Notes under the pieces: generated by a model | The model's database searches: none | The model's input: only the letters and a program-made list of their open reading frames with translations | What the model was told of the DNA's origin: nothing | Assembly (NCBI GenBank): GCA_030427245.1 | Contig: JAUHXA010000053.1 | Span: forward strand, 1 to 50,617 | Source of the DNA: Bacteroidia bacterium | GTDB lineage: Bacteria > Bacteroidota > Bacteroidia > Chitinophagales > UBA2359 | Length of the DNA: 50,617 bases | Direction: 5' to 3' | Translations under genes and position numbers: made by a program | In this document: one piece after another, positions 1 to 19,046 of the stretch | Layout of the letters: each line of letters opens with the position of its first letter | Position numbering within the stretch: position 1 is the first letter of the stretch

Positions 1-75
1 TGCGGACAAACATTCGGCAAAAATACAGATATTTTTTATTTTTTGCAATAGCTTTTCCCACTACAAACAATTTGA

Positions 76-249: not shown

Positions 250-466
250 GTTTTTTATTCTCAATTTGGTGAGTTCCATTGAACTATAGGGAAACAATAT
301 GCGATTGGATAATTTCCAAGATCATAATGCTGCTACAATAAGGAGCGTTTGACGATAGTCGTTGGAGGGTGTTTTCTACAAAACGACGAAATCCTTTTTT
401 GACCACCACATAAGACACAATAGATCTCATACACACTCAAACACGACTACCAACTAAACACAGCGA

Positions 467-1393
467 TTAGTCCACCATCGCTGTAATCGGATGCTTCAGT
501 CCTTTATAGTCTGTCAAATGTACTTTTACTTTTCCAATGGTAACAGGAGATTCAATCAAAACAGGGAGTTTGTTTGCATCATCAGTAGCATAGATGATCA
601 TTTTGTCATCACCACCTTCACCAAAAGCATCCCCTTCCAATAGGTAAGGAGACAGTTTGATGCATCGCACTTTACCAATTTTGGTTTTGACCACTTCTTT
701 GCCGAGATAGCGGAAATAAACGGGTTTGATTTTTTCACTCGTAAATAAGTCAATGTGAACTGTTTCACCTTCCTTAAATTTGGAGAAATCCAAAGAACGG
801 GTGTAGTATAGAATCGAAACGATGTCTTGAGCACAAGTTGAAATGCTTACATCTTCATTTTTTGTTTTTACCGTTCCTTTTTTGATGCGGAAATTAACAT
901 TTGCCTTATTGTTGTCGTGAAAAAATTCGTATTGTGTTTGCTCAGAATATTTTCCTTCGTTGATATCCAGAGAGAATTTCACAGGACGCATACTTTGTTT
1001 GTCAATATAACTTTCGTAGTTGTCATCCACCTCATAAAACCAATTGAAGGCCGAAGCAGTACGTCCCACACATTTTGCATGGTAAGTAGGTTTACCATTG
1101 TAGGTAGTTTCATTCAGATGGAAGGTTGCTTTTCCGGCAGTCATATTGATTGCAGTCCATTTATAGTTGATTTTGTAAGTAAGTGTTTCTCCTACTTCAA
1201 AGGTGTTGAAGTCCATATAAGAACCACAAACATCGTTTTTCTGGCTTGCATTTTTGTTGCCCACTGCTACGCTGCTGCTCATTAAGATAAAAGATGCAAC
1301 GGCTAAAAGTACCACGAATTTTATCCCCCAAAAACCAAGAAACAATGATTTGAAGGAGTCACGAAGCTTATGGAAGAAAAATAGATTTTTCAT
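467..1393 (-). CDS. DUF3108 domain-containing exported protein
   Basis: A 308-residue protein with an N-terminal hydrophobic segment at about residues 23-45, so it is probably exported or membrane anchored. The rest matches the DUF3108 pattern: a start like FEVGETLTYKINYKW, then AGKATFHL, a conserved FNWFYEVDD, and a C-terminal region with DDANKLPVLIESP. DUF3108 proteins are periplasmic or outer-membrane beta-rich proteins of unknown function. The gene lies 7 bp downstream of a paralogue in the same orientation, so the two are almost certainly one operon that arose by tandem duplication. Start ATG at 1391-1393. Family assignment is firm; function is unknown. Confidence 0.85.
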   Translation of the reverse strand: MKNLFFFHKLRDSFKSLFLGFWGIKFVVLLAVASFILMSSSVAVGNKNASQKNDVCGSYMDFNTFEVGETLTYKINYKWTAINMTAGKATFHLNETTYNGKPTYHAKCVGRTASAFNWFYEVDDNYESYIDKQSMRPVKFSLDINEGKYSEQTQYEFFHDNNKANVNFRIKKGTVKTKNEDVSISTCAQDIVSILYYTRSLDFSKFKEGETVHIDLFTSEKIKPVYFRYLGKEVVKTKIGKVRCIKLSPYLLEGDAFGEGGDDKMIIYATDDANKLPVLIESPVTIGKVKVHLTDYKGLKHPITAMVD

Positions 1394-1400
1394 GAGATTG

Positions 1401-2279
1401 TTATTTTATTTTGGCATCTAAGGGATGCACAAGATTTTCGTATTCATTTAGATAGGCTTTCATCCAACCTACCCTGAGTGGTGATTCTATCAGCAAAGGC
1501 AATTTGTTGGCATCGTCTGTCACCCAAATCACCATCGTTTCGCCACCCTCACCAAAGGCATAGCTCGACAACAACATGGGCGCAAATTTGAGACAACGAA
1601 ACTTACCCATTTTGGTTTTTAACTCGTCCTTTCCTTTATAACGTAAATGAACGTTATAAGATTTTCCATCTAAAAAAACATCTATTGGAATCGTATCGCC
1701 CACTGCAAGATGGCCTTTTTTGAAGTCGAAAGCTCGTGCATAATAAAGCGTTGACAAGACATCTTGTGTACAAGATTTGATGCTTGCGACTTCGTCTTTT
1801 GCCTTCACTTCTCCTTTGCGAATTCGATAATCAATTGCCACTTCATTTCGGTCGTGAAAAAAACGAAACTGATTCTTTTTGGTGAATTTGCCTTCGTGAA
1901 TATCTCGAATGTACTTCAATGGCAGCAAAGTCGAAGGGTCAATATAGCTTTCGTAATGGTCATCTATTGTGTAAAACCAATTGAAGGCGGAAGCGGTTTT
2001 GCCAACACAATCAACATGATACACCGTTTTGCTGTTCATATAAGCATCCGAAATCTCAAATGTGACATTGCCTGCTTTCATCCAAATTGCCGACCAATTG
2101 TAGTAAATCTTGTAGGTCAGTTTTTCACCCGATTGAAAAGTATTGTAATCCAAAGGCAACGAACAAATAGCATCTTTTGAAGCAGTAGAAGTCGCCTCAT
2201 TGTTTCCTCCTTTTTTTGCATGAACATGGTAAACAACACTCATACAAATCACTAAACAGAGCCATATCCATTTTTTCAT
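1401..2279 (-). CDS. DUF3108 domain-containing exported protein (paralogue)
   Basis: A 292-residue protein with a clear signal peptide (MKKWIWLCLVICMSVVYHVHA, cleavage near residue 21). The mature part parallels the neighbouring protein over its whole length: FQSGEKLTYKIYYNW, AGNVTFEI, FNWFYTIDDHYESYIDP and DDANKLPLLIESPL. I chose the ATG at 2277-2279 over the TTG one codon upstream. It is the first gene of the two-gene operon. The two copies have diverged to roughly half identity by eye, so the duplication is not recent. Function unknown; a role in envelope assembly is only inferred from export and family. Confidence 0.85.
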   Translation of the reverse strand: MKKWIWLCLVICMSVVYHVHAKKGGNNEATSTASKDAICSLPLDYNTFQSGEKLTYKIYYNWSAIWMKAGNVTFEISDAYMNSKTVYHVDCVGKTASAFNWFYTIDDHYESYIDPSTLLPLKYIRDIHEGKFTKKNQFRFFHDRNEVAIDYRIRKGEVKAKDEVASIKSCTQDVLSTLYYARAFDFKKGHLAVGDTIPIDVFLDGKSYNVHLRYKGKDELKTKMGKFRCLKFAPMLLSSYAFGEGGETMVIWVTDDANKLPLLIESPLRVGWMKAYLNEYENLVHPLDAKIK

Positions 2280-2367
2280 CAAAGGATAGATTTTTTTTGT
2301 TAGACAAAATTTAGGTTGATTGGTTTATTATTTCACCCCTACATTGTTCCATTAATTTTATTGAATG

Positions 2368-2397
2368 AACAACAATACAACAATACAACAATTCAAC
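2368..2397. repeat. CAATACAACA simple repeat
   Basis: A short degenerate tandem run of AACAATAC units at the 3' end of the flippase-like gene. Similar CAAT/AACCAT simple sequence appears in the gaps at about 5050-5257 and 13300-13340. Confidence 0.5.
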
Positions 2398-3370
2398 TTT
2401 CCCACCCTTCCAATACATTCAAACGACTGATCAGCCACCAACCTACAATAGCAGGCATCATCAAATTGATCCACCAAAGACTAAACGTTGCAGCAATGAT
2501 AGCGAGATGATTGGTGGTCACATAGCCCCAAAAAAATATAGCAAGGTTTCCCCGAATTCCCAACTCTATAAGGGCAATACTTGGGATGAAAAGTTGCACA
2601 AAAAAGATGGTATTTACCACCATCCAAGCGGTCAAAAGTCCGACTTCCATATTGAAGGCCCAACACAAACCGATGTATTGAAGGGTAAAAACGAGGTTTC
2701 GCAAAAACGACCAACCCAAAACCTGAGCTAACTCTCGTTGAGAATAGGTTTCAATGGGCTTGAAATAGCTTTTGTAGCGTCGGAAAAAAGGAATTTTTCC
2801 CATCCATTGTTCCGCTTTTTGAACGTGAAAATAGACTAGTAAAAGAGCTACAATCAGCAAGACTGCTCCTGCAATCGCCAATTCCATTTGCCAACCGTTC
2901 CACTTCAAATAAAACCCTGCAAAAGTTAAAAAACCAATCGCTCCCAAGGTGACATTTGCAATGATTTGACTCAAACTGCCCACCAAGGTTACAGCAATCG
3001 CCTGCAATCTGTTAGCGTGCTGCAATATCAGCACCCGTCCTCCGTATTCTCCTACTCGATTGGGTGTAAATAGCGACAGGGTAATACCGCACAAAATCGC
3101 TCGAAAAGCATCTTTGAAAGAAAGACGTTCCATTTTTGTCAAAAGTTGCCGCCATTTTTGGGCTTCAATGCCCCAGTTGACAAAAGTAAAACTACAAACT
3201 CCCATCATCCAAGCTGCATTGTGAAATTTGAAGGAAATTAAAAATGTCCAAATAATGGCTTCAACGTTCTCTTGACGAGCAATCTGTTGGTAAATTGCCC
3301 AAACCAAACCACTAAAAATGAGTATCTTTAGGAATCGAGTCAGGTTCTTTTTAAAATCTGGATTGGACAA
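2393..3370 (-). CDS. Lysylphosphatidylglycerol synthase TM region / flippase-like membrane protein
   Basis: A 325-residue polytopic membrane protein with about seven to eight hydrophobic segments. The short motif SLFTPNRVGEYGGRV near residue 96 is characteristic of the UPF0104/LPG_synthase_TM family, which in its stand-alone form is proposed to move lipids or lipid-linked compounds across the inner membrane. There is no C-terminal aminoacyl-transferase domain, so lipid aminoacylation is unlikely. No ATG is available near the N-terminus; the best start is TTG at 3368-3370, with a stop only nine codons upstream. It is divergent from ruvC with a 36-bp gap, so both promoters must overlap there. 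Confidence 0.8.
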   Translation of the reverse strand: MSNPDFKKNLTRFLKILIFSGLVWAIYQQIARQENVEAIIWTFLISFKFHNAAWMMGVCSFTFVNWGIEAQKWRQLLTKMERLSFKDAFRAILCGITLSLFTPNRVGEYGGRVLILQHANRLQAIAVTLVGSLSQIIANVTLGAIGFLTFAGFYLKWNGWQMELAIAGAVLLIVALLLVYFHVQKAEQWMGKIPFFRRYKSYFKPIETYSQRELAQVLGWSFLRNLVFTLQYIGLCWAFNMEVGLLTAWMVVNTIFFVQLFIPSIALIELGIRGNLAIFFWGYVTTNHLAIIAATFSLWWINLMMPAIVGWWLISRLNVLEGWES

Positions 3371-3406
3371 TATTGGTTGACTTGGTTTTGAAATCTAAAT
3401 GTTTGT

Positions 3407-3973
3407 ATGGACAAAAATAAGAAAATCATAGGAATAGACCCTGGTACAGTGGTGATGGGTTATGCAGTGATTGAGGTACTCGGCAAAAATGACCTGGAAA
3501 TCCACAGCATTGGAGTTGTGCGGCTCAATAAATATCCTGATGCTTATACCAAATTGAAGGTGATTTACGAAAAAATTACGTTTCTGGTAGATACTTATGA
3601 ACCTGATGAAATGGCGATTGAAGCTCCTTTTTTCGGAAAAAACGTTCAGTCTATGCTCAAATTGGGAAGGGCACAAGGAGTGGCGATTGCGGCAGGAATG
3701 ATGCATGGCATGAATGTGCAGGAATATGCTCCTCGAAAAATTAAACAATCTATTACTGGAAATGGAAATGCTTCAAAGGAGCAGATTTCGGCTATGTTGA
3801 AGCACATGCTGAAAATTGATGCTATGCCGAAATATTTTGATGCAACGGATGCGCTCGGCGTGGCGGTTTGTCATCACCTTCAATTGCAGTCTCCCTTGCC
3901 AATTGGAGGAAACAAAGCGAAGAATTGGAAAGCGTTTTTGGCGGCGAATCCCGATAGGTTGAAGAAGAAGTAA
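3407..3973 (+). CDS. ruvC: Crossover junction endodeoxyribonuclease RuvC
   Basis: A 188-residue RuvC, the Holliday-junction resolvase that works with RuvAB in recombinational repair. The RNase H-like fold and the four acidic catalytic residues are visible: D11 in IIGIDPG, E72 in MAIEAPFFGKN, and D145 and D148 in FDATDALGVAVCHH. Length fits the family (about 160-190). The gene is convergent with the ABC permease; their stop codons are only 4 bp apart. No ruvA or ruvB is adjacent. Confidence 0.97.
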   Translation: MDKNKKIIGIDPGTVVMGYAVIEVLGKNDLEIHSIGVVRLNKYPDAYTKLKVIYEKITFLVDTYEPDEMAIEAPFFGKNVQSMLKLGRAQGVAIAAGMMHGMNVQEYAPRKIKQSITGNGNASKEQISAMLKHMLKIDAMPKYFDATDALGVAVCHHLQLQSPLPIGGNKAKNWKAFLAANPDRLKKK

Positions 3974-3977
3974 ATAA

Positions 3978-5042
3978 CTACACAATCTTCTTACGCTTCA
4001 AAAACCAATACCCCTTATACACCAATGCCAAAAATACATAGAGGTGAATAAATCCCGCCGTATCTCCAAACAAATACGTCAGAATGGGTTCGTCGTCGCT
4101 ACCCATCAAAAGGGTTTTAGTGAATTGATTGACGAATAATAAAATATAAATGCCTAATCCCACATAAACAGCTACGCTACTCGCATAAGACCATATTGCA
4201 GAAAAAACACTGGTTTTGGGGGCTTCTTTTTTGTAACCATCTTTGGTTTGGTATTTATGCGGAAAAAATTGGCGGTCGAGGTAGGTGAAATACTTATCTT
4301 GAAGGAAACCGATAATCACAATAACGACCAAAAGAGCAAAGACCTTATCTACACGTCCTTGCCGCTGCCCGACTCTCCAAATCAATGCTCCAATTCCTCC
4401 TTGATTCCCCAAGCTTTCGGCAATGATAATATACGTCCATGAAATAGCTGTCAGGACTCGAATATCGTCTGAGAGTTTGGAGATAACTGCGGGAATGTAG
4501 ACCGATTTGATGGTTTGCCATTTGGTTGCCCCCAAAGTATAGACAGTTTTGGTATAGACATCTTCAATGTCGTCAATTCGCTGAACGACCACAGGTAGTA
4601 GGTAAATCAATATCCCAAATGCCAAAAAATGGACTTTCATGGATGTTCCCAAACCAAACCAGATAATGAATAATCCTGTCACCGCAGTCAATGGCACAAA
4701 TCGAAAGGCATCTACTTGTTTTTGGAGTGTTCCTCTAAACAAAGGAAACAAACCAATCAGAAAACCCAAGGGAATCGCAATCGCTATGGATTCGGTATAA
4801 CCCGCCAAATTCAAACCCATCGAACGACACAAGTTTTTGAAGAGGTCGTTGTCAAAATAGAGTTCTTTGTAGGATGCTAAGACTGCCCACGGACTCGGCA
4901 AAATACCTGAACGTACTATTGGATTTTCGCCTACGGTTAGGATGTGCCAAATCAAAATCAACAACAAAATCCCGATGATTTCGAGCATCAATCGGGTGCG
5001 GGTATCAAGTGTTCCTCGAAGTTTGAATAAACGACTTAGCAT
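3978..5042 (-). CDS. NitT/TauT-type ABC transporter permease with C-terminal extension
   Basis: A 354-residue inner-membrane permease of the SsuC/TauC/NrtB class (BPD_transp_1). The cytoplasmic EAA loop that contacts the ATPase is recognisable as YTLGATKWQTIKSVYIPA at about residues 169-186, and the N-terminus contains ILPSPWAVLAS, typical of the class. Usual length is 250-280; this one carries about 80 additional C-terminal residues with two further predicted membrane segments. It is the last gene of the minus-strand set that includes two cognate-looking substrate-binding proteins. No ATP-binding subunit is encoded in the window, so the ATPase must be elsewhere or shared. The gap to the upstream gene is 222 bp and contains a fold-back sequence. 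Confidence 0.85.
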   Translation of the reverse strand: MLSRLFKLRGTLDTRTRLMLEIIGILLLILIWHILTVGENPIVRSGILPSPWAVLASYKELYFDNDLFKNLCRSMGLNLAGYTESIAIAIPLGFLIGLFPLFRGTLQKQVDAFRFVPLTAVTGLFIIWFGLGTSMKVHFLAFGILIYLLPVVVQRIDDIEDVYTKTVYTLGATKWQTIKSVYIPAVISKLSDDIRVLTAISWTYIIIAESLGNQGGIGALIWRVGQRQGRVDKVFALLVVIVIIGFLQDKYFTYLDRQFFPHKYQTKDGYKKEAPKTSVFSAIWSYASSVAVYVGLGIYILLFVNQFTKTLLMGSDDEPILTYLFGDTAGFIHLYVFLALVYKGYWFLKRKKIV

Positions 5043-5066
5043 TGTTTTTACTGTTGAATTGCTGAA

Positions 5067-5256
5067 TGGTTAGATGCTTGAATTGTTTTATTGTTAGATG
5101 GCTATATGGTTGAATTGCTAAATGATTTGCGCCTGTTCAAATCTGGAGACTTGCCACTTGGTTTCGTACAAGTTAGGAAACTTGTACTGGTAGGTATTTT
5201 TTAAAGGTATACCTATTGCGTCAATGCAACAATAAAACAATTCAACCATATAACCA
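5067..5256. repeat. Fold-back intergenic repeat
   Basis: The arms 5067-5096 and 5228-5256 are near-perfect inverted repeats of about 29 bases (core AACAATAAAACAATTCAA). Between them is a second perfect hairpin, GTACAAGTT at 5166-5174 against AACTTGTAC at 5179-5187, and a short TAGGTAT/ATACCTA pair. The whole gap can therefore form a long branched hairpin. It lies between the SBP-OmpA gene and the permease and could attenuate or process the transcript. Confidence 0.6.
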
Positions 5257-5264
5257 TAAAAACC

Positions 5265-6833
5265 TTACTCCGCTACAAGCTGAAATTCCGTCCTCCTATT
5301 TTTAGAACGACAAGCCTCTGTATCGTTTTTCTCACAACCTTTGACGGGTTTGTCGGGACCATTCCCTACAATGATGAAGCGATTCACATCCATATTGTAA
5401 GCCGTTTCGAGATATTTAGCTACGGATTCGGCACGTTTGAGAGACAGTTTTTTGTTCATCGTTGCAGAACCAACGTTGTCGGTGTTTCCTTCCACTCGAA
5501 TACGAGCATTGGAGAAAGCTTTGGCAACGTCTCCAAATTGAAGGTCAATGATGGTTTTTGCATTTTCACCCAATTCAGATTTGCCTGTAGGAAAGCTGAT
5601 GCTGATGGGTTTTGAAGCAATCGCAGGAGCCGTTTTCTCTTTTTCAGTAGGAGCCTTGAAGGTTTTGCCGCCTTCTGCAAGATTGGCATCGCCACTCAAA
5701 TTTGCGGCACTAATCGCACCAGGGTAAGCAATTGTTCTCCAATTGGGCCAGCCTTTTTTCGCAAAACCCAATTCTTCGTAGGTTTTACCCATTTTGGTAT
5801 ATAATTTTTCGCCTGTTACGCCTTTGTAGTCGGGATTTCTACCAAAAAAATTGAGGTTGTCGCCATGTGTGGTCAAGCGGACATTGTTGATTCCTCCCAA
5901 TGCATCTTGCTCCGAAATTCCTGTTCCATCTGCCATGATTTTGGCTGCTTTTTTCTTAGCAGCTTCTGAAGCATTGATTTCTGCTGCACCAATCATGAAC
6001 CCTTCGTAGAGTTTGTTCACTTTGTCTCGATTGGCATCTACCCAAGATTTTTTGGCGATATAAACATCTGCTACAATGTGAGAAGCATCACGTGTACTTT
6101 GTAGTACTGTAGCACCGGGAACTTCTCGTACAATGATTTCATCGTCGGGACTCCAAACCACTGCGGCATCCAAACGGTCGCTTTTGAAAGCAGTTGCTGC
6201 GTCAATTGCTGAAGGTACTTCTTTGACTTTCACATCGTCTAAGGTCATGCCTGCTGCCTCCAACATCCAAATCAAAAAAGTTTGAGAGGGAGTAGAAGGG
6301 GTAACTGCTACGGTCTTTCCTTTCAAATCGTTGATGCTATTGATGCCTCTACGCGCTACAATCGCATCTCCACCTCTTGACCAATCAACTTGAAACAATA
6401 TCTGTGGGTCGTACTCCTTCAATCCTTCCATTTCGGTCGGAAGTGCATCGGCTGTTGTTCCCAACAAATGTACTTCATCGGCTTTCCACGCACTTCGAGA
6501 AGCGTCAAAGTCGTCAATCAACATGAAATCTACGTCCAAGCCATAGTCTTTCGTAAAGCGGGATTTTGCAGAATGTTTGAAGCCTTCATTGAAGTATTGT
6601 CCACCTGCATAACCGCCCCAAGTAAAGGCTTGGACTTTGATGACATCACCATTTGAAGTTTTTGTAATGGGGTCTTTGCCGTTAATATCTTCGATTGTTT
6701 CCTTTTTAGCGATTTCTTTGCCGATATCTGTATTATTTGCCAAGTAATACAGTCCGCCACCAATTCCACCTACTATGAGTAGAGTGATGATGAATTTAGA
6801 AAAGCCAGTCAAACGAGTTCTTTGCTCTGCCAT
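5265..6833 (-). CDS. Substrate-binding protein fused to OmpA C-terminal domain
   Basis: A 522-residue two-domain protein. Residues 10-30 form an uncleaved-looking membrane anchor. Residues about 62-365 are a NitT/TauT-like periplasmic binding protein (VAVTPSTPSQTFLIWMLE, AVVWSPDDEI). After an Ala/Lys-rich linker, residues 415-522 are an OmpA/MotB-type peptidoglycan-binding domain with the pattern NTDNVGS...LSLKRAESVAKYL and a final KNRRTEF. The product should be tethered to the inner membrane and grip the cell wall while presenting a ligand-binding module in the periplasm. It is downstream of a near-duplicate SBP without the OmpA part and upstream of the matching permease. Ligand unknown; a phosphate or nitrate assignment would be guesswork. 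Confidence 0.85.
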   Translation of the reverse strand: MAEQRTRLTGFSKFIITLLIVGGIGGGLYYLANNTDIGKEIAKKETIEDINGKDPITKTSNGDVIKVQAFTWGGYAGGQYFNEGFKHSAKSRFTKDYGLDVDFMLIDDFDASRSAWKADEVHLLGTTADALPTEMEGLKEYDPQILFQVDWSRGGDAIVARRGINSINDLKGKTVAVTPSTPSQTFLIWMLEAAGMTLDDVKVKEVPSAIDAATAFKSDRLDAAVVWSPDDEIIVREVPGATVLQSTRDASHIVADVYIAKKSWVDANRDKVNKLYEGFMIGAAEINASEAAKKKAAKIMADGTGISEQDALGGINNVRLTTHGDNLNFFGRNPDYKGVTGEKLYTKMGKTYEELGFAKKGWPNWRTIAYPGAISAANLSGDANLAEGGKTFKAPTEKEKTAPAIASKPISISFPTGKSELGENAKTIIDLQFGDVAKAFSNARIRVEGNTDNVGSATMNKKLSLKRAESVAKYLETAYNMDVNRFIIVGNGPDKPVKGCEKNDTEACRSKNRRTEFQLVAE

Positions 6834-6939
6834 ATTTTAATAAGGTTAATGATGATTTATGAGTATTTTTTTTGGAAAGCGTAGAGAGAAATGTGATTCT
6901 AATTTTTTGTCTCTCTATTCTCTGCTTTTTTTTATAGAA

Positions 6940-8085
6940 TCAATATACGTCCACGAAATTCATTTCTGCTTGGTGTTCGTCACCCTCCAAATTTGCAGTT
7001 GTCACTGCCCCGGGGTAGTAGATGGTTTGCCAATCCAACCAGCCTTCTTTTGCAAAGCCCAATTTTTCATAGATATCAGCCATTTTAGTATAAAGCTGAT
7101 TACCTGTTACGCCTTTGTAGGCTGAGTTTTTACCAAAAAAGTTGAGATTGTCACCATGTGTGGTTAAGCGAACATTGTTGATGCTGCCTATTGCATCTTC
7201 TGGCGAAATACCTGTTCCTTCTGCCATGATTTGTGCTGCTTTTTTCTTAGCATCGGGAGAAGCATTTATTTCGGCTGCCCCTATCATAAAGCCTTGGTAG
7301 AGTTTGTTTACCTTGTCTCGGTTGGCATCTACCCATGATTTTTTGGCAATATACACATCCGCAATGATGTGAGCCGCTTCTTTGTTTCGGGTACTTTTCA
7401 AGACCTTTGTACCTTCCATTTCTCTGGTGATGATTTCATCATCTGGACTCCAAACTACTGCGGCGGCTAACTTCCCACTTTTGAAGGCTGTTGCTGCATC
7501 AATTGCCGAAGGAACTTCCTGTACTTTGATGTCTTCTAAGCTCATTCCCGCTTCTTCTAACATCCAAATCAAGAAAGTTTGAGAGGGTGTAGATGGAGTA
7601 ACCGCTACCATTTTGCCCTTCAAATCTTTGATGCTGTTGATACCTTTGCTGGCTACAATTGCATCTCCTCCTCTCGACCAGTCGACTTGAAATAGGATTT
7701 GCGGATTGTATTGCTTCAATCCTTCCATTTCGGTCGAAAGTGCATCGGCAGTTGTTCCCAACAAATGTACTTCGTCGGCTTTCCAGGCACTTCTTGAAGC
7801 GTCAAAATCATCCATTAAGATGAAGTCCACGCTCAATCCGTAGTCTTTCGTAAAGCGAGATTCAGGTGAATGTTTGAAGCCTTCATTGAAGTATTGACCT
7901 CCTGCGTAACCACCCCAAGTAAAAGCTTGGACTTTTATGATGTCGTTTTTGTCGACTTTGGTGGTTTCTTCTGTAGTTTTATCGTCTTTATCTGTTGTCG
8001 TTTTGGTTTGACAACCGATTGTGAAGAGGAGGGAGACGAGTAATAGGGTGAAAAGTTTGGGGTAAATTGTTTTTGAATTTTTCAT
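6940..8085 (-). CDS. NitT/TauT-like substrate-binding lipoprotein
   Basis: A 381-residue lipoprotein: signal peptide with lipobox FTIGC (Cys25), a Thr/Lys/Asp-rich linker, then a binding-protein domain nearly identical to that of the next gene (shared KVQAFTWGGYAGGQYFNEGF, DFDASRSAWKADEVHLLGTT, VPSAIDAATAFKS). It stops where the OmpA linker of the neighbour would start, so it is the short sibling of a tandem duplication. As a lipoprotein it may deliver ligand to the same permease from the inner membrane, or be sorted to the outer membrane. A terminator-like hairpin precedes it, suggesting its own promoter. Confidence 0.85.
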   Translation of the reverse strand: MKNSKTIYPKLFTLLLVSLLFTIGCQTKTTTDKDDKTTEETTKVDKNDIIKVQAFTWGGYAGGQYFNEGFKHSPESRFTKDYGLSVDFILMDDFDASRSAWKADEVHLLGTTADALSTEMEGLKQYNPQILFQVDWSRGGDAIVASKGINSIKDLKGKMVAVTPSTPSQTFLIWMLEEAGMSLEDIKVQEVPSAIDAATAFKSGKLAAAVVWSPDDEIITREMEGTKVLKSTRNKEAAHIIADVYIAKKSWVDANRDKVNKLYQGFMIGAAEINASPDAKKKAAQIMAEGTGISPEDAIGSINNVRLTTHGDNLNFFGKNSAYKGVTGNQLYTKMADIYEKLGFAKEGWLDWQTIYYPGAVTTANLEGDEHQAEMNFVDVY

Positions 8086-8127
8086 GTATTGATTTTTTGA
8101 GGTTCTCTAACGGACTTGGGCAAACAG

Positions 8128-8162
8128 AAAAGTCAGATTAAATCACCTTCAATCTGACTTTT
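8128..8162 (-). terminator. Rho-independent terminator after the PspA-like gene
   Basis: Perfect 12-bp stem AAAAGTCAGATT (8128-8139) / AATCTGACTTTT (8151-8162) with an 11-nt loop, flanked by A and T runs, 22 bp past the stop of the coiled-coil gene. It separates the coiled-coil genes from the binding-protein genes at the transcript level. Confidence 0.7.
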
Positions 8163-8183
8163 ATGCTGGGATTTCTGTATTTT

Positions 8184-9209
8184 TTAGAAATCGAATAAAT
8201 CATTGTATTGACTCTTTTGTCCTTCTTCCCGTTCCTTTTTGGGTTGAACAGGTGCATCCAAATCAATGGTAATGTTGTCTTGTTCTACCTCTTTGATGAT
8301 GGTATTTTTTTCGTCACCCAACAAGAAAGAAGTGCCTTCTTTTTCCCATTTTTCGAGCATCGCCAAGCCTTTTTCTTCAAAGACACCGTTTTGAAGGTCA
8401 ATGGAATCCATAAAATTGTCGGAAATTTCCATGAACCGTTCCATTTCGCCTACTTTTCGTCCCACATCGTCTGCGATGGCTTCCATTGCTTGGTCAAACA
8501 TCATTCGTTTGTCCTTGTCTCCTGCAATAATGTTCATAGCTGATTTCATAGCCGAATGACTGGTACGTATGGCTTCACGTTCTCGTTTTTTCAGTTCGAC
8601 TTCATCTTGAACATCCTCCAAAAGGATTTCAGAAGTTTCGTACATTTTGGTTAGAACTCGATACATCACCTCCATTTTTTTGTAGAGGTCATCGAGTTTG
8701 AAGTTGGATTCTCGAAGACGACCTGCCTTTCGGGACTTCAAAATCATGATGTTTTCTTTGCCTTTTTCTTTAGCCCGACTCGCCAAAGCAAGGTTTTGCT
8801 CCATCATTGTGCGATTTTTGTCCATCATGGTTTTGAGCTTACGCATTTCGCCTCGAAGATTGGAGATTTGTTTGCCCATTTTTCGAAGGTTGTTGCGAAG
8901 GTCTTCCATGTAGGATTCGATGATTCCGATGGGGTCAATCTGCACAAAAATTCCTGTGATGAATCGCATAATGCTCTTGTAACCATACCATAGTAGGTTT
9001 CTGAATCTGGGGTCAACGACCACATAGACCATAACGGCTAAGACACCAATTAGCAGGGCGGCGGTAATGGTGTTTTGAAGTAGAGCAATGATGGCGGGTA
9101 AGAACATGAATAATCCATAAGCAGCCGCACCAACCATTGCAATGCCAAACAGTGCGCCCGTTTTTCCTTCTGGTCTTTTCCAAAAAGACTTTCCTTTTAT
9201 CTCTTGCAT
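8184..9209 (-). CDS. Membrane-anchored PspA/IM30-like coiled-coil protein
   Basis: A 341-residue protein starting at ATG 9207-9209; the reading frame is open 33 codons further up, but that part is non-coding in composition. Two membrane segments (about 17-43 and 46-66) are followed by a long alpha-helical coiled coil (about 92-300) whose beginning, QIDPIGIIESYMEDLRNNL, resembles the start of the PspA/Vipp1 helical hairpin (DP-x-IhhxYhxDhxxxL). The tail is acidic and ends in NDLFDF. PspA family proteins assemble on stressed inner membranes. The membrane anchor is unusual for PspA, so relationship could be convergent. It follows the soluble coiled-coil gene by 121 bp. Confidence 0.6.
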   Translation of the reverse strand: MQEIKGKSFWKRPEGKTGALFGIAMVGAAAYGLFMFLPAIIALLQNTITAALLIGVLAVMVYVVVDPRFRNLLWYGYKSIMRFITGIFVQIDPIGIIESYMEDLRNNLRKMGKQISNLRGEMRKLKTMMDKNRTMMEQNLALASRAKEKGKENIMILKSRKAGRLRESNFKLDDLYKKMEVMYRVLTKMYETSEILLEDVQDEVELKKREREAIRTSHSAMKSAMNIIAGDKDKRMMFDQAMEAIADDVGRKVGEMERFMEISDNFMDSIDLQNGVFEEKGLAMLEKWEKEGTSFLLGDEKNTIIKEVEQDNITIDLDAPVQPKKEREEGQKSQYNDLFDF

Positions 9210-9330
9210 AAATAATGTCGGTTTATGAGTGTTATTATTTGTTTTGTGTTTGTAATGAATAATCCGATTTAGGTTACAATTAGTTTCCTGTTTGTGAAAA
9301 ATTAACAAAAAAAAACAGGATTTGGATTTT

Positions 9331-10062
9331 TTAGCTCAAATATTTATTGATATTTTCAACATCTTTATCCATTTGGGTCAACAAATGGTCGTAAGTTGTG
9401 ATGAAACTGTCTCTTTCTTCCTGTACTTTTTCCTTCAAACCTTCGATTTGTTTACAGGTTTTATCCAATTCTGCTTGATGTTGACTAATTTCTTCAGTCA
9501 GCTTTTTGATTTGTTCTGATTTTTTCTGAATCATTTGGGTCAAATCATTGGTTCGTGCTTCGTTTTTGTGCAGTCGTCCTCCGATGTGTTTTTGAAGTTC
9601 GTTCCTAAAGCTGTCTTTTTCTTTCTCCAATACTTTTTTGTAAAAGTTTGCAGAATCCATGAGCTTTTGTTTGGTTAGCCCCATTGTTGAAGCTGTCGCA
9701 AAAGCAGATTGAAATTTTGCAGCCTCGTCTATAGGAATGTCTTTCAAGGCCGTCAAAGAATGTTTGAACTCTAGATAATCAAACCCTTCCATATTGTTTA
9801 CTTCGATGGCTTTCATCAGCATATCGTAGTATTTTTTGGTAACAGTAGGTTTTTTTGGTGTTGGAGGAGGAGGCATATCGGATTTATTTTTTTTGTTTGA
9901 AGGAGGCGTTTCCTCTTTAGATTCAGGCTTTTGGGTCGCTTCTTGTTGGACTTCTTTTTTAGGCTTATCCTTTTGCTCATTGATAGGAGCATTGGGTGTG
10001 TGCTCTTGCCCTTCTTCTTCTTCAACGATAAAAAGCGATTTTAAATTCTTTAGATTTATCAT
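9331..10062 (-). CDS. Soluble coiled-coil protein of unknown function
   Basis: A 243-residue cytoplasmic protein. Residues 15-75 are low complexity, rich in Glu, Lys, Pro and Gln (PPPPTPKK). A small helical region follows (about 76-130), and residues 140-243 form a heptad-rich coiled coil (QIKKLTEEISQHQAELDKTC). No catalytic motif is visible. It is the first gene of the minus-strand set and precedes the PspA-like protein, so a partner role (scaffold or regulator of the PspA-like oligomer) is plausible but inferred only from context. I do not recognise the family. Confidence 0.65.
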   Translation of the reverse strand: MINLKNLKSLFIVEEEEGQEHTPNAPINEQKDKPKKEVQQEATQKPESKEETPPSNKKNKSDMPPPPTPKKPTVTKKYYDMLMKAIEVNNMEGFDYLEFKHSLTALKDIPIDEAAKFQSAFATASTMGLTKQKLMDSANFYKKVLEKEKDSFRNELQKHIGGRLHKNEARTNDLTQMIQKKSEQIKKLTEEISQHQAELDKTCKQIEGLKEKVQEERDSFITTYDHLLTQMDKDVENINKYLS

Positions 10063-10219
10063 TTCTATTTGAGATACTTATTTGTTTGATTGCAATATAA
10101 GAAAAACAGCTTAAAATTAGAAAAACTTATGGAATTTGAGGAGTGGACTTGCATTTTCCAAAAAGAAATTGGATATTTAAAACGTAAATAATTTATTAAC
10201 CGTCAAATATTATTCCATT

Positions 10220-11407
10220 ATGAAGATAAAGTCAATCTCACCCACCCTCCTTTCAAGAGGGGAGTTTATCCAAAAGATAAATAACAGTAAAGTTACCTTT
10301 TCTTTGGTATTTATTTTTTTATTGCTGCTTTTTTCCGACGCTACAATGACTGCTCAAAACATCGCCACTTTTACAGACAAACATGGACGGTTTAAGGTGT
10401 TTGACAATGGTAAAATACAGGATTTAGAACACGAAGAAATAACAGAAGTTCATATTGGAGGGGACTATGTGGTGTATAAGGACAATATCAAACAAACAAA
10501 GCGGTACTTCAATGGGGAAGTGGAACACATTACGGACGACCAAAAAATCAAGTTTTACCCTGCTCAGTATTTGATGGGTGTTGTAGAGGGCTTTAAAGGA
10601 GAAATATTGAAGGTTTATTATGGGGGAGAGGAAGAATTGTTGACCATAGACCTACAAAGAGATGGTTTTGAAGTGGGAGATAGTGTTTTGGTTTTCATAG
10701 ATATTGACCAGTATTTGAGTGTCTTCTACAACGGAATGACGGATGAGTTGACGGGACGTTTTCCAGATGCTGACAATTTTAAAGTGAGTACCAATTCAGT
10801 GGCGTATATTGACAATTCGGGTAGCTTTTTGATTTTTCATGGGGGAGAAATTGCAGAAGTCTCTCACCGAGAGCCTTCCACAAAAGAAGATGGATACAGC
10901 TATCATGTGGGAGATAATTTTGTGGTTTTTATAGACGAAATGGGGAAGTTGGTGGCTTATGATGAAGGTGAATTGACCACCTTGACCGAATTTGAACCTG
11001 ATGCGTATGTTGCTGGAGATAAGATTGCCGCTTTCGTGAATGATAATGGACAGTACATGGTATATTGGAATGGTGAAGTGAAAGAACTTGCTCCAAGACC
11101 GCCCAAATTTCAGGCGATTGAAGACAACACTTTGGCGTATGTAGATGATAGAGGATATTTGAATGTATTCGACCAAGGCAAAAACGAGGTTTTGGAAATG
11201 TATGAACCAAAAAAGATTGAAGTCTTCAATGGGATTGTGGTGTATATGGATTTAGACGGGCGATTGAAGGCGTATTACGAAGGCAAGAAATTGAAGGTGT
11301 CGAATGAGATTGTCAAGGATTTTCGATTGGAGGGAAGGGTTATTTTATATACGGTCGGCAACAATGAAACGAAGATTTTTCACGATGGAAAACATTATTC
11401 GGGGTGA
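10220..11407 (+). CDS. Secreted repeat protein, beta-propeller-like
   Basis: A 395-residue exported protein. The N-terminus has an extended, partly odd leader before a hydrophobic segment (VFIFLLLLF, about residues 31-41) and a cleavage-like TAQ. The mature part is made of about seven imperfect 45-50-residue repeats with the pattern AYxDxxGxLxVFxxGexxxL followed by FxVGDN, all beta-strand-like, suggesting a propeller or solenoid. The final unit is GRLKAYYEGKKLKVSNE and the end is IFHDGKHYSG. A shortened, disrupted paralogue lies 540 bp downstream. Divergent from the coiled-coil gene at 10062. Function not recognised. Confidence 0.7.
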   Translation: MKIKSISPTLLSRGEFIQKINNSKVTFSLVFIFLLLLFSDATMTAQNIATFTDKHGRFKVFDNGKIQDLEHEEITEVHIGGDYVVYKDNIKQTKRYFNGEVEHITDDQKIKFYPAQYLMGVVEGFKGEILKVYYGGEEELLTIDLQRDGFEVGDSVLVFIDIDQYLSVFYNGMTDELTGRFPDADNFKVSTNSVAYIDNSGSFLIFHGGEIAEVSHREPSTKEDGYSYHVGDNFVVFIDEMGKLVAYDEGELTTLTEFEPDAYVAGDKIAAFVNDNGQYMVYWNGEVKELAPRPPKFQAIEDNTLAYVDDRGYLNVFDQGKNEVLEMYEPKKIEVFNGIVVYMDLDGRLKAYYEGKKLKVSNEIVKDFRLEGRVILYTVGNNETKIFHDGKHYSG

Positions 11408-11569
11408 TTAGGCAAATTCAAATTAAAAACTCAAATGCAAATTCAAACAATACTTTGTAAGCGAGCAAAGTAAATTGCAGAAATGCCTAATTTAATATTT
11501 TAGTTTGCCTAGTCCGAAAATACAAGCAATAAAATAACTCTGGTAGTAAATAATTCATATTTCTTGTAT

Positions 11570-11903
11570 GTCTGCTTAATAGCGTATAGGGTTTCATTGA
11601 CGTTCAAAAAATAAACGGGTATTTTGTACATCTAAAAGTTGTTTTACTCCTTATCATAGAGTACAAATTTATTAATTTGGAATTAATCGATACATTTAAA
11701 GCGCTTTGCCTGTTTCAAATTTCATCTAATCTACTCACAGGATTCTTAACAGAATGACAAAAGGGAGCGTGTCATATTGTAAATATCCTGTGAGAGCATA
11801 TCGATAAATTGTATTTAATGTATAAAACCTAATAAAAAACACAACACTAAAATTACCCGATTAATTTTTGAACGTCAATGAAACCCTACGCTATTGAGCA
11901 GAC
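11570..11903. mobile_element. Fold-back element, MITE-like (~334 bp)
   Basis: Terminal inverted repeats of about 40-55 bases: the left end GTCTGCTTAATAGCGTATAG continues into TTTCATTGACGTTCAAAAA and its inverted copy occupies about 11863-11903 with few mismatches. Inner parts also pair (CTCACAGGAT near 11735 with ATCCTGTGAG near 11787, and ATCGATA motifs), so almost the entire element is one imperfect palindrome. It contains no coding frame. TAT flanks both ends, possibly a 3-bp target duplication. It covers most of the 539-bp gap between the two repeat-protein genes and ends 43 bp before the paralogue's ATG. Bases 11408-11569 show nothing definite. Confidence 0.65.
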
Positions 11904-11946
11904 TATTATGAAAAAGTAATTGTGATAGTTAAAATTTTGTAATCAA

Positions 11947-12670
11947 ATGAAAAACAATACACTACTTCAATATAGTTTGTTGATTTTGGCAATTCTGTTG
12001 TTATTTTCTTCAATGGATGCTCAAAATATTGCGCCTTTTGTGGATAAATATGGACGCTTCAAAGTGTTTGACCATACTACTGTACAAAATGATTTTTGAA
12101 CCACAAAAGTATCAAAAGAGCACAAAAGAGATGGTTGAATTTCAGTTCTTTACTTTTATTTTCTTTGTGCCTTTTGTGGTTGAATTAAAAATGTACAGTA
12201 GTATGGTGTTTAACAATGGCATGATTCACGATTTGGAGCATAACGAAGTAAGTGAGGTTTCAACAGGTAGGGATTTTGTGGTCTATAGAAATAGCATTGG
12301 TCATGTGAAAGAATACGCAGAAGGAGAAGTGACCTATATTTCTAATAGCAGGAGATTGGAGTTTTTTGCAGTAATGGAATCAGACAATAGCCTCATAGTA
12401 GAATCAGGCTATCACCTATCTGTATTTGATACCGAAACAAAAACAAGAACGCTTTTGGAAACTTTGCGTATCAAAAAAGTACAATCATTTGATAAAGTAG
12501 TCGCTTATATGGATATAGATGGGCGATTGAAGGCGTATTATGAAGGGGAAAAGGTGAAAGTTTCGAATCAAATCATTCAAAGTTTTCAATTGATAGGTCG
12601 GGTCATTGTTTATACACTTAGAAACGGAAAGGTAAAGATTTTTCACAACGGCAAACATTATTCAGGTTGA
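11947..12670 (+). pseudogene. Disrupted paralogue of the secreted repeat protein
   Basis: Starts with ATG 11947 and a good signal peptide (LLILAILLLFSSMDAQ), followed by APFVDKYGRFKVFD, matching TFTDKHGRFKVFD of the intact gene upstream. At 12073 a 133-bp palindromic element interrupts the gene; translation then stops at TGA 12097-12099 after 50 codons. Homology resumes at 12206 in a frame shifted by one (FNNGMIHDLEHNEVSEV) and runs to the shared end IFHNGKHYSG. Removing the element and one target duplication restores a 193-residue frame, so the gene was intact when hit. It lacks the central repeats of its 395-residue relative. A start at 12017 would read through the element but would have no signal peptide. 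Confidence 0.8.
12073..12205. mobile_element. MITE (133 bp) with 9-bp target duplication
   Basis: Perfect 14-bp terminal inverted repeats, CATACTACTGTACA at 12073-12086 and its complement at 12192-12205, followed inward by an imperfect palindrome (CCACAAAAG ... CTTTTGTGG). It is flanked by GTGTTTGAC (12064-12072) and GTGTTTAAC (12206-12214), a 9-bp target-site duplication with one change. The intact paralogue upstream has a single GTGTTTGAC at the equivalent place, which confirms insertion. No coding capacity, so it must be moved by a transposase elsewhere. Confidence 0.85.
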
Positions 12671-12797
12671 AAACGTTTTTTTGCTACTTTTGGACAGGAA
12701 CTGCTGGATGCAAAGTAACTATTTGTAGCTTGTGGTTTTCTCTTACCGATAGAATAAGAGTTCGTTCATTATTTATTATCCTAATTATCAATTAACC

Positions 12798-13178
12798 ATG
12801 AGTGCAATAAGACAACAACAAGTAGCCAGTTTGATTAAGCGGACACTGAGCGAAATTTTTATCAAAGAAGGACGCAATATTTACAACAATGCTTTTGTGA
12901 CAATTACACAAGTCCGACTCACCCCCGATTTATCTGTGGCTCGAATTTATTTGAGCGTTTACAATATTCAAGACAAAGAGGATGTGATTACGATGATTTC
13001 TGAAAACGAGTACGGAATTCGTCGGCTTTTGGGCAATCGAATTCGCAATAAAGTACGTCACATTCCTGAATTGGAGTTTTACCTGGATGATACTTTGGAC
13101 GAAGTATATAAAATGGATAAACTCCTAGATGGTTTAGACATACAGCCCGAAAAAGAGGAAGACGATAGTGAGGAATAA
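12798..13178 (+). CDS. rbfA: 30S ribosome-binding factor A
   Basis: A 126-residue RbfA, the KH-fold factor that binds immature 30S subunits and helps 16S rRNA 5'-end processing and cold adaptation. Visible features are the N-terminal helix with RQQQVASLIKRTLSEI, VTITQVRLTPDLSVARIYLSV, and RNKVRHIPELEFYLDDTLDE before an acidic tail. Length is typical. It lies upstream of a LolC/E-type permease gene, an arrangement common in Bacteroidota. Confidence 0.96.
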   Translation: MSAIRQQQVASLIKRTLSEIFIKEGRNIYNNAFVTITQVRLTPDLSVARIYLSVYNIQDKEDVITMISENEYGIRRLLGNRIRNKVRHIPELEFYLDDTLDEVYKMDKLLDGLDIQPEKEEDDSEE

Positions 13179-13220
13179 TATTCTAAATCAATTATCATAA
13201 ATTCAAAAATCGTCTATCAT

Positions 13221-13254
13221 ACATCTTGTGTCCACCGGTTTTGATACAAGATGT
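13221..13254. terminator. Hairpin between rbfA and the permease
   Basis: Stem ACATCTTGT (13221-13229) / ACAAGATGT (13246-13254) with a 16-nt loop, 43 bp after rbfA. There is no U tract, so it may be an mRNA-processing or stabilising hairpin rather than a terminator. The rest of the gap ends in AACCAT/AACAAT simple sequence. Confidence 0.35.
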
Positions 13255-13344
13255 GCGATTACGTACTTTTTGAAGGAGGATTTTAATCAAGTATCGTATA
13301 TTTGGCAATCCAACCATAGAGCCATCTAACAATCCAACAATTTA

Positions 13345-14577
13345 ATGAACTTAGCCTTTCACATTGCCAAACGCTACCTGATTTCCAAAAAATCAACCAA
13401 TGCCATCAATGTCATTTCCTTTGTGTCGGTGATGGGAATGATAGTCGGAACAATGGCTTTGATACTGGTCTTATCGGTCTTCAATGGCTTTGAAGATTTG
13501 GTGACCTCGCTCTACAATACCTTCAATCCACATATCAAAATAACCGCAGAAGAAGGAAAGGTTTTTACACCCGACAGTTCAAAAGTACTACAACTTGAAG
13601 CTTTACCACAAGTCTTAGCCGTTTCTAAAGTATTGGAAGAAAATGCTTTATTGCAGTACCGAGAAGAAAACAATTTCATTGCTCGATTGAAGGGAGTGGA
13701 CAATAATTTTACCCAAGTTTCGCAAGTTGATACAGCTTTGATAGATGGCAGTTTTTTGTTGGAAGATGGAGCGATTGACTATGCCGTTTTGGGCTTGGGA
13801 GTGCAGAACATTTTGAGAGTCAATATCCACAACGAGTTTACACCTATTCGGGTCTATATGCCCAAACGGGATGTGAAGGTCAGTCGAATGCGTCCTGAAT
13901 CTGCCTTCAAACAAGAAATGATTTATCCTTCTGCTGTTTTTGCGATTCAACAAGATTTCGATGCACGCTATGCAATCGTACCTATTCGGTTTATGCGTGC
14001 GTTGTTGAATTATGACAAAGAAGTGAGCGCCATCGAAATAGCGCTGAAAAATGAGGAAGATGCAGACTATGTAAAAAAGCAGATTAAGACGATTATGGGC
14101 GAGGGCTTCTATGTGAAAGACCGATATGAACAAGACGAAACGCTCTACAAAATCATGACCGCTGAAAAATGGGTGGTCTATCTCATTCTTTCCTTTATTC
14201 TCATTGTTGCTTCCTTCAATATCATCGGTTCACTGTCCATGTTGGTCATCGAAAAAAAACACGACATTGGCATTTTGAAGGCAATGGGTGCAACGAAAAA
14301 CTTTGTCCGTCGAGTGTTTTTTATGGAGGGAGTGATGTTGTCTTTGAGTGGGGCAATTATTGGAGGCGTTTTGGCAACAGCTATCTGTTTGATTCAGCAA
14401 CATTTTGAAGTAATCAAACTGCAAGGAGCCTCGTTTTTAATTGATGCGTATCCGGTTAGTATGCGAATGGGTGATTTTGTGTTGGTGTTTGTGACGGTGA
14501 TGGTGATTTCGGTTTTGGCTTCGATTGTTCCTGCTCAACGAGCAGCAGAAACGAGTCAGTTGATGAAGGAAGAATAA
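13345..14577 (+). CDS. FtsX-family ABC permease (LolC/LolE-like)
   Basis: A 410-residue permease with the MacB/LolC architecture: one N-terminal membrane helix (about 20-45) preceded by AKRYLISKKSTNAINVISFVS, a large periplasmic domain (about 50-260), and three C-terminal helices containing IEKKHDIGILKAMGAT, the conserved cytoplasmic contact site for the ATPase. In Gram-negatives the LolCDE complex releases lipoproteins from the inner membrane. The ATPase partner is not nearby. LolE-type assignment is by architecture; a general export permease cannot be excluded. Confidence 0.88.
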   Translation: MNLAFHIAKRYLISKKSTNAINVISFVSVMGMIVGTMALILVLSVFNGFEDLVTSLYNTFNPHIKITAEEGKVFTPDSSKVLQLEALPQVLAVSKVLEENALLQYREENNFIARLKGVDNNFTQVSQVDTALIDGSFLLEDGAIDYAVLGLGVQNILRVNIHNEFTPIRVYMPKRDVKVSRMRPESAFKQEMIYPSAVFAIQQDFDARYAIVPIRFMRALLNYDKEVSAIEIALKNEEDADYVKKQIKTIMGEGFYVKDRYEQDETLYKIMTAEKWVVYLILSFILIVASFNIIGSLSMLVIEKKHDIGILKAMGATKNFVRRVFFMEGVMLSLSGAIIGGVLATAICLIQQHFEVIKLQGASFLIDAYPVSMRMGDFVLVFVTVMVISVLASIVPAQRAAETSQLMKEE

Positions 14578-14813: not shown

Positions 14814-14829
14814 GAATTTGAAATTTTGT

Positions 14830-18943: not shown

Positions 18944-19046
18944 GAAGTAAAGCTGTTTCTCTGCGTTCCAATTGCAGTTTTGTCAGCTATAGATTTCCTT
19001 CAAGGCTTAATTTGTTTTATTTTGCAGCAAAGCAAAATATCAAACA

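Follow-up and report, generated by a model that had tools for sequence, protein, structure and literature searches.

A Bacteroidota gene module pairing NitT/TauT-type importer components with a putative PspA/IM30-related membrane coiled-coil protein

Gene content of the locus

The analysed stretch of DNA (hereafter the window) is the 50,617-nt contig JAUHXA010000053.1 of assembly GCA_030427245.1, which belongs to Bacteroidia bacterium (Bacteroidota; Bacteroidia; Chitinophagales; UBA2359) and is labelled C144 here. ORF and Pfam checks confirmed five genes at positions 3978-10062, all on the minus strand, as an earlier note made from the sequence had reported. From the highest coordinates downwards, these are CC (9331..10062), a soluble protein of 243 aa; TMCC (8184..9209, with an internal ATG start), a putatively PspA/IM30-related inner-membrane protein of 341 aa; SBP2 (6940..8085), a lipoprotein-type NMT1-family binding protein of 381 aa from which the OmpA domain is absent; SBP-OmpA (5265..6833), an NMT1-family binding protein of 522 aa with a C-terminal OmpA domain; and a NitT/TauT-type ABC permease of 354 aa (3978..5042).

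The 98 bp between TMCC and the gene that follows it, SBP2 (50 and 137 bp after TMCC in the related loci L037 and L044), contain a terminator-like hairpin on the minus strand (8123..8167). The terminator placed at 8128 by the earlier note is real as a hairpin, with a folding energy of -20.1 kcal/mol (z -5.3) that was equalled by none of 200 shuffles; a simple terminator scan did not list it. SBP-OmpA and the permease are separated by 222 bp of dispersed repeat (5043..5264), whereas in L037 and L044 the two genes overlap or lie 2 bp apart. No Rfam matches at gathering scores were found at positions 1-20000, and none of the nine scanned window proteins matched PspB, PspC or PspF. A defence system was considered and rejected on present evidence because the PADLOC hits were generic OmpA/MotB, AAA, ABC or coiled-coil matches.

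SBP-OmpA matched the Pfam families NMT1 (44.4 bits) and OmpA (56.7 bits), both above cut-off. It has a signal-anchor-like helix at the N-terminus and a peptidoglycan-binding OmpA domain at the C-terminus, where the pattern TDxxG....NxxLSxxRAxxVxxYL is present, which we take to be an OmpA-domain motif. SBP2 (NMT1, 50.9 bits) is a local duplicate of SBP-OmpA, 78% identical and minus the OmpA domain; its LLFTIGC sequence is lipobox-like. The permease matched PF00528 with 50.3 bits (cut-off 26.4), was the sole match of its kind in its own genome and carries what we assume, reading its sequence, to be an ATPase-coupling EAA loop. With permease and binding protein above the curated Pfam cut-offs, the pair falls within NitT/TauT-type importer families; the best NCBIfam match of the permease was SaoP, at scores that did not reach the NCBIfam cut-offs.

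According to the structure model, CC consists of a short N-terminal motif helix (LKNLKSLFI), a low-confidence linker, a small helical domain (residues 76-126) and one 110-residue helix (131-241). It had no match among PDB folds, and its sequence hits in Pfam and PDB were generic coiled coils. Considering the lack of a fold match and a CC-TMCC profile comparison of 5 percent, CC as a second PspA or a TMCC relative is unsupported.

Relationship of TMCC to PspA and Vipp1

Hydrophobic windows of TMCC span residues about 17-70. In the structure model, which is of modest quality (mean pLDDT 69), a transmembrane hairpin is followed by an amphipathic helix (67-91), a PspA/ESCRT-III-like helical hairpin (93-221) and a further helix (233-269); the C-terminal motif, QYxDLFDF in the window version, is conserved. 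The helix ahead of the hairpin had a hydrophobic moment of 0.48 (shuffle p 0.02), compared with 0.41 (p 0.06) for residues 2-22 of E. coli PspA. Residues 91..225 of the model superposed on residues 23..157 of Vipp1 over 135 residues with an rmsd of 2.3, Z 9.7 and no net gap, and the comparison with PspA (4whe) gave Z 9.1 over 123 residues; BAR domains ranked higher, with Z up to 11.6, and such values are easily reached by helical models. Foldseek returned no match to the model at E<=0.001. PspA and Vipp1 align gap-free across the hairpin formed by helix 1 and the joined helices 2/3, the length of which is conserved (PMC8281802), and the modelled TMCC hairpin fits this length feature, with the same reservation that BAR domains score higher.

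At the sequence level, the description of the protein as PspA-like held for its family and not for the window copy itself, which had no match to PF04012 (PspA_IM30) at E<=0.01. Among aligned TMCC rows, PF04012 was matched at E<=0.01 by 6 of 12 and 16 of 40, with a best value of 3.5e-7 (30.5 bits); all five hits seen individually were below the curated cut-off of 33.9 bits. In each of the 5 listed hits, the DP preceding the hairpin fell on profile position 23, as does the DP of E. coli PspA. The generic coiled-coil family TACC_C matched 10 of the 40 rows, more weakly than PF04012. Direct comparisons were less informative than these matches, which are probably the better evidence for PspA kinship: hhalign probabilities against E. 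coli PspA were non-significant (0.7 percent for alignment A3 and 3 percent for A2), and a PDB search with the TMCC profile gave nothing below E 0.1. In ungapped-register scans with E. coli PspA, shifts by 7 and 28 outscored the DP-anchored register, which came third (z 2.8); that register was second with an actinobacterial PspA, and the best register for YjfJ was two residues off expectation, a likeness that is suggestive only.

Taken by sequence, TMCC appears to be a PspA/IM30 relative at the family level, weakly so in the window copy. It shares with PspA/Vipp1 the amphipathic helix, the DP, the gap-free helical hairpin and the next helix, as well as the register of its relatives' PF04012 hits. 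It differs by the N-terminal transmembrane hairpin and the conserved C-terminal motif, by a chain that exceeds that of E. coli PspA by ~120 residues and by a family similarity that stays below the Pfam cut-off. No classical PspA was found in its own genome with PF04012 at E<=0.001, a search for which the control was positive in 9 of 14 known genomes.

ATPase and AAA+ genes on other contigs

The earlier note stated that no ABC ATPase was present, which is correct for contig C144 (none of the 47 own-genome matches) and incorrect for the genome. A probable ortholog of the module ATPase stands alone on another contig (G000:C169:15667-16443), with Walker A, LSGGQ and DEP motifs intact. It is 65% identical to the operon ATPase of a relative, the next best own-genome candidate having 42%, and it reached 479 bits against a profile from which the C169 sequence was absent; the score of 501 bits obtained with alignment A5 is circular, that alignment including the sequence itself. 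In the tree, the C169 ATPase paired with the operon ATPase of L087 with weak support (80/66). The tree is poorly resolved and does not settle orthology: the 13-row fork with the C169 ATPase also takes in two long-branch paralogs from its own genome, yet leaves out the divergent ATPases of the L050, L181 and L182 operons; the assignment is based on identity and on the independent profile. An AAA+ relative is also encoded in this genome, on contig C173.

Conservation and co-inheritance

The order sample comprised 119 genomes of the host's order, in which TMCC was called with no query other than the window protein. Just as the C169 sequence is part of A5, some members of the sample supplied rows to alignment A4 (among them the window, L050 of G101 and L049 of G086) and, L050 excepted, to A8. 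TMCC was detected in 23 of the genomes and the permease in 14; SBP-OmpA occurred in the same 14, all of them TMCC-positive, and neither gene was present in any of the 96 TMCC-negative genomes (Fisher 1.4e-12). An ATPase was found at E<=1e-80 in 12 genomes, each permease-positive, and divergent ATPases adjoin the permease in G058 and G101, which gives an ATPase in all 14. ATPase and permease are adjacent in 13 of these genomes, the exception being the present one. In seven genomes (G011, G098, G111, G117, G079, G001 and G058), the ABC arm is located on a contig other than that of TMCC.

Of the 72 non-redundant loci whose flanks were long enough, 62 have CC no more than 3 kb upstream of TMCC, so that the coiled-coil genes do not usually lie elsewhere. 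By the refuting conditions set in the earlier note, this result and the confinement of SBP-OmpA and permease to TMCC-positive genomes of the order sample favour a system. CC, SBP-OmpA, permease and ATPase are all near TMCC on the same strand in 20 loci, 4 of which also contain the AAA+ gene, the only loci with this gene in the operon. Full operons with AAA+ were found in Lacihabitans sp. LS3-19 (L153) and in Tenacibaculum and Aquimarina records labelled uncultured (L120, L146). Transport lies outside the core of the module because permease and SBP-OmpA were not found in 9 of the 23 TMCC-positive genomes at the thresholds used, only CC is near TMCC in 25 of the 72 loci, and 7 have not even CC.

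The module is uncommon. In the phylum sample, TMCC was present in 10 of 296 genomes, three of them outside the order: G273 and G185 with the ABC arm and G355 with CC alone beside TMCC. G273 has the identical five-gene order with a TMCC only 28% identical. In a contig scan, those of the best 80 of 476 relatives that had an informative title were Bacteroidota, and a search of plasmids with the TMCC of L182 gave no match. The genes had been regarded as linked by synteny only; the order shared outside the host's order, the co-inheritance and the ATPase in all 14 genomes argue for a functional module rather than loose synteny. This conserved module comprises CC, TMCC, SBP-OmpA, the NitT/TauT-type permease and the ABC ATPase, sometimes with an AAA+ ATPase.

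Comparison with known systems

The locus had been proposed as an undescribed system. Among the open-access texts, the gene set was found only in PMC11237479 (mSystems 2024), a genome survey, section 18 of which mentions operons with PspA or a transmembrane-bearing Snf7, an AAA+ protein, an ABC ATPase, a permease and a PBPB-OmpA protein. The locus is a further case of this gene set and not an undescribed one. Matched by description, it shares with those operons the permease, the PBPB-OmpA binding protein and a transmembrane-bearing coiled-coil protein of the PspA/Snf7 family, and fuller relatives of the module also have the ABC ATPase and AAA+. It differs from the operons as described there by the absence of a classical PspA gene (PF04012, own genome, E<=0.001), by the location of the ABC ATPase (C169) and the AAA+ relative (C173) on other contigs, and by the additional OmpA-less lipoprotein binding protein and the CC partner. 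Since that section states that such genes 'may occur' in an operon, an operon AAA+ is no strict criterion. Local oddities of this genome are the split-off ATPase and the second binding protein, a lipoprotein copy that lacks OmpA. With the NitT/TauT-type ABC importers (SaoP as the best match; SsuABC, TauABC), the module has the permease, binding-protein domains and ATPase family in common; in contrast to them, the binding protein is fused to an OmpA domain and, in the order sample, is present only alongside TMCC.

Possible function of the module

We consider the five genes to be part of a co-inherited module made of a peptidoglycan-tethered NitT/TauT-type importer and a membrane-anchored TMCC of the PspA/ESCRT-III family with CC, and give this reading a probability of about one half. 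The most likely role is that of an ESCRT-III-like inner-membrane scaffold coupled to the tethered importer. SBP-OmpA would be held between the inner membrane and the wall and hand its ligand to the permease and ATPase. TMCC would lie on the cytoplasmic face, fixed by its transmembrane hairpin and amphipathic helix, and could, together with CC, form a polymeric patch or ring that stabilises or remodels the membrane round the transporter. The conserved QYxDLFDF tail of TMCC and LKNLKSLFI of CC may serve for docking, and in genomes that have it the AAA+ protein may take the polymer apart. CC-TMCC would be the core, able to work alone, and the ABC arm an add-on needing it.

The components could also represent a plain importer of the sulfonate, taurine or nitrate type, with the OmpA domain merely a periplasmic hold, CC-TMCC serving general envelope upkeep and the genes travelling together by operon history. 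An importer remains compatible with the data because the ATPase ortholog exists on C169 and an ATPase adjoins the permease in the 13 other module genomes; the permease, binding protein and ATPase families are all there, and CC-TMCC is frequently found without the ABC arm. What makes the plain-importer explanation improbable overall is that every genome of the order sample with the arm also had TMCC (14/14), and operon history alone explains the co-occurrence poorly because the arm tracks TMCC even on other contigs. A transport-coupled ESCRT machine goes further than our preferred reading: an ESCRT-III-like polymer with a permanent inner-membrane anchor, obligatorily paired with the wall-tethered ABC transporter, in which ligand capture or ATP cycling at the wall side would control membrane scaffolding on the cytoplasmic face. 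This we regard as speculative and likewise improbable.

From the tethered binding protein and its PspA-like partner, the earlier note had suggested sensing of, or response to, the envelope state over plain import. The argument from a missing ATPase lapsed when the own-genome search found the C169 ortholog; ATPase absence was therefore rejected as evidence for a non-transport role. A signalling function, with SBP-OmpA sensing the wall, the ABC arm as a sensor without transport output and TMCC as a PspA-type effector, agrees with the wall tether and PspA-type protein in one module, with the absence of a classical PspA by PF04012 and with a histidine kinase downstream of TMCC at two loci of one genus (L042, L043). 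However, the kinase linkage is local, the conserved set has no regulator, and the binding-protein domain, the presumed EAA loop of the permease and the conserved ATPase point to ligand transport, so we rank signalling slightly below the plain importer. Decay of the module towards loss, with the ATPase drifted off, the binding protein duplicated and the operon broken by terminator and repeats, would fit the ATPase-permease separation unique to this genome among 14 and the repeat-built spacer, but is very improbable given the uninterrupted genes, the kept motifs, the retained single permease, the still similar duplicate and a gap after TMCC no wider than those of L037 and L044.

As the locus illustrates, a split operon can make a transporter cluster look 'ATPase-less'. 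A link between ABC transport and PspA/ESCRT-III-type scaffolds is merely proposed in the corresponding section of PMC11237479. The one-way co-inheritance observed here, in which the ABC arm occurs only with TMCC and TMCC also occurs without the arm, turns this proposed link into a testable dependency.

Gene content of the window

Five genes on the minus strand occupy positions 3978-10062, all present and none interrupted, in the transcription order CC (243-aa coiled-coil protein), TMCC (341-aa transmembrane protein), SBP2 (lipoprotein-type binding protein), SBP-OmpA (NMT1-family binding protein with an OmpA domain), and a NitT/TauT-type permease. The five co-oriented genes of the earlier note were confirmed, and its terminator near 8128 corresponds to a strong hairpin (z -5.3) between TMCC and SBP2. 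Curated Pfam cut-offs were exceeded by the permease, the binding-protein domains of SBP2 and SBP-OmpA, and the OmpA domain. The permease and TMCC each had a single match in the genome. The permease C-terminus (3978-4250) carried approximately 80-90 extra, partly hydrophobic residues, also present in locus L049 of a relative and absent in L037 and L044. The spacer 5043-5264 is built of a repeat that contains an inverted pair of 30 nt (93% complementary). The genome has 34 matches to it at E<=0.001, a count that includes matches of the spacer to itself in direct and inverted orientation; the segment separating SBP-OmpA from the permease therefore belongs to a dispersed repeat family.

SBP2 has a lipobox-type start, lacks the OmpA domain, and is a copy of the binding-protein part of the adjoining SBP-OmpA (78% identity over 347 residues, joint branch 100/100). 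Only one other of the 14 genomes with SBP-OmpA, G116, had such a pair (L087). Since its two copies also group with each other (100/99), the pairs would have arisen either by parallel duplication or by gene conversion.

Beyond the five genes, two 10-bladed beta-propeller proteins (PF21734) are encoded at 10220-11407 and 12017-12670; the second is probably a shortened copy, covering only profile positions 198-345 of 345. Two adjoining proteins of about 300 aa, similar in appearance, lie at 467-1393 and 1401-2282, the latter having no NCBIfam match at E<=0.1.

Features of TMCC and CC

TMCC had hydrophobic windows across residues ~17-70. Next come an amphipathic helix (67-91; moment 0.48, shuffle p 0.02), D92-P93, a helical hairpin (93-149/152-221), an unsure stretch, and a helix at 233-269. 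The helical part should be cytoplasmic, judging by the lysines and arginines flanking the transmembrane hairpin on both sides. In the C-terminal motif, which is conserved, Tyr and Leu were invariant in 12 of 12 rows. PF04012 (PspA_IM30) matched 16/40 and 6/12 aligned TMCC rows at E<=0.01 (best 3.5e-7), the two sets sharing rows and both counting the window row, which itself had no match at this threshold. TACC_C, a generic coiled-coil family, also matched 10/40 rows (best 0.00038). Five PF04012 matches of relatives, inspected individually, were all under the curated cut-off. Each placed the aspartate of its DP pair at profile position 23: L181 (residue 130), L182 (154), L120 (92), L145 (91), and L086 (92). 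Escherichia coli PspA has its DP (24) at this position too, since PspA residue 2 is profile position 1. The alignments of L181 and L182 spanned 117-118 residues with zero net gap, and that of L086 extended past the hairpin through the next helix (91-271 vs. profile 22-192). The TMCC model (mean pLDDT 69), compared with PspA/Vipp1 as the earlier note had proposed, superposed on Vipp1 across 135 residues with an rmsd of 2.3 A; however, BAR domains ranked above Vipp1, which leaves the fold comparison with little weight by itself. We interpret TMCC, at the level of the family, as a PspA/IM30 relative anchored in the membrane.

In the model of CC, the commonest companion of TMCC, the LKNLKSLFI motif lies in a short helix at the N-terminus; a linker of low confidence and a small, conserved domain of helices lead into a single helix of 110 residues (mean pLDDT 83). 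Fold comparison revealed no solved relative, and sequence searches gave generic coiled-coil matches, nothing more specific.

Conservation of gene order

Overall, 116 TMCC loci were collected: 33 from genomes of the same order (with second copies counted), 80 from a named-genome collection (the best 80 of 476 relatives), and 3 from outside the order. After 10 loci with identical TMCC tails were dropped, 106 remained, and 72 of them had flanks of >=6.5 kb on the downstream side and >=2 kb on the upstream side. Genes were counted on the same strand only, CC within 3 kb upstream of TMCC and the others within 7.5 kb downstream, with limits of 150 bits for SBP-OmpA, 60 for the permease, and 90 for the ATPase. 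CC was found in 62 of the 72 loci, SBP-OmpA in 37, permease in 26, ATPase in 24, and AAA+ in 4. These are low estimates because the 150-bit limit loses divergent SBP-OmpA genes, among them those of L050 (95 bits) and L181 (83 bits). CC, SBP-OmpA, permease, and ATPase occurred jointly in 20 loci, CC alone in 25, and no counted partner in 7. The coiled-coil gene thus usually lies near TMCC rather than elsewhere, which argues for a system. In L044, the genes from SBP-OmpA through AAA+ overlapped or were <=5 bases apart. Outside the order, the arrangement was kept in full in G273 (CC weak, 40 bits) and, apart from an undetected CC, in G185; their TMCC proteins are 28% identical to that of the window; conservation in distant genomes was the outcome that the earlier note expected of a system.

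In G041, a GmrSD-type restriction gene (L034:10016-11998) splits CC from TMCC. Downstream of TMCC, two genomes from a single genus encode a histidine kinase and then a glycine-cleavage T protein (L042:4061-6359, L043:9974-12077); the kinase comes after SBP-OmpA in L042 and right after TMCC in L043.

Co-inheritance in Chitinophagales and the dispersed ATPase

TMCC was present in 23 of 119 genomes of the order, a sample that contains the genome of the window. The permease family (E<=1e-45) and SBP-OmpA (E<=1e-50) were found in the same 14 genomes, all TMCC-positive, and in 0 of 96 TMCC-negative ones (Fisher 1.4e-12 for the permease, a value that overstates independence, given draft genomes and shared ancestry within the sample). 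The ATPase family (E<=1e-80) was detected in 12 genomes, every one permease-positive; in the remaining two, G058 and G101, an ATPase gene beside the permease is divergent and scored 117 and 118 bits, respectively. At the thresholds used, the ABC arm (SBP-OmpA, permease, and ATPase) was not detected in 9/23 TMCC genomes, which counts against strict coupling. Within the order sample, gene content points to one-way dependence: the arm occurs only with TMCC, and TMCC also without the arm. A long AAA+ match (>500 bits) was found in 10 genomes, nine TMCC-positive and the other being G028. Two TMCC matches were detected in 11 of the 23 genomes, all in one family, f17; loci L055, L057, and L060 are second CC-TMCC pairs with no ABC arm.

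The earlier note reported no ABC ATPase. This holds for the window's contig, since the 47 ABC-ATPase matches found genome-wide all lie on other contigs, but not for the genome. In several relatives, an ABC ATPase of ~268 aa directly follows the permease, and that of L049 had one standout match here, C169:15667-16443 (65% identity; next best 42%). The C169 protein contained Walker A, LSGGQ, and Walker B motifs and scored 479 bits against a profile of four operon ATPases built without it. Among its neighbours in a 19.5-kb stretch, none was a module gene. Its probable orthology was judged by identity and profile score, an ATPase tree being poorly resolved. A linked ATPase, which the earlier note suggested seeking, adjoins the permease in 13 of 14 permease genomes, that of the window being the sole one separating them; in 7 of the 13 (G011, G098, G111, G117, G079, G001, and G058) both lie on another contig than TMCC. 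The AAA+ protein of L044, encoded after the ATPase, had a relative on contig C173 (46% identity over residues 3-627 of 631). With these matches on C169 and C173, the genome has, by sequence similarity, the whole module gene set in dispersed form.

Relation to described systems

The system had been proposed as possibly undescribed, which did not hold: the gene set belongs to a kind described in the available text of PMC11237479, a 2024 survey. That survey mentions operons in which PspA or a TM-bearing Snf7 protein may occur with AAA+, an ABC ATPase, a permease, and a PBPB-OmpA protein, and it also records a coiled-coil protein gene as the third gene in PspA-Snf7 neighbourhoods of Bacteroidetes. 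No experimental work on this kind of module was found in the open-access literature searched. The quantified one-way co-inheritance, CC anatomy, split ATPase, and OmpA-less lipoprotein copy were not found in that text or in the literature searched. In the best-supported mechanism, a wall-tethered putative importer would work together with a PspA/ESCRT-III-type scaffold anchored in the membrane; within the order sample, the transport arm was found only where the scaffold was present as well.
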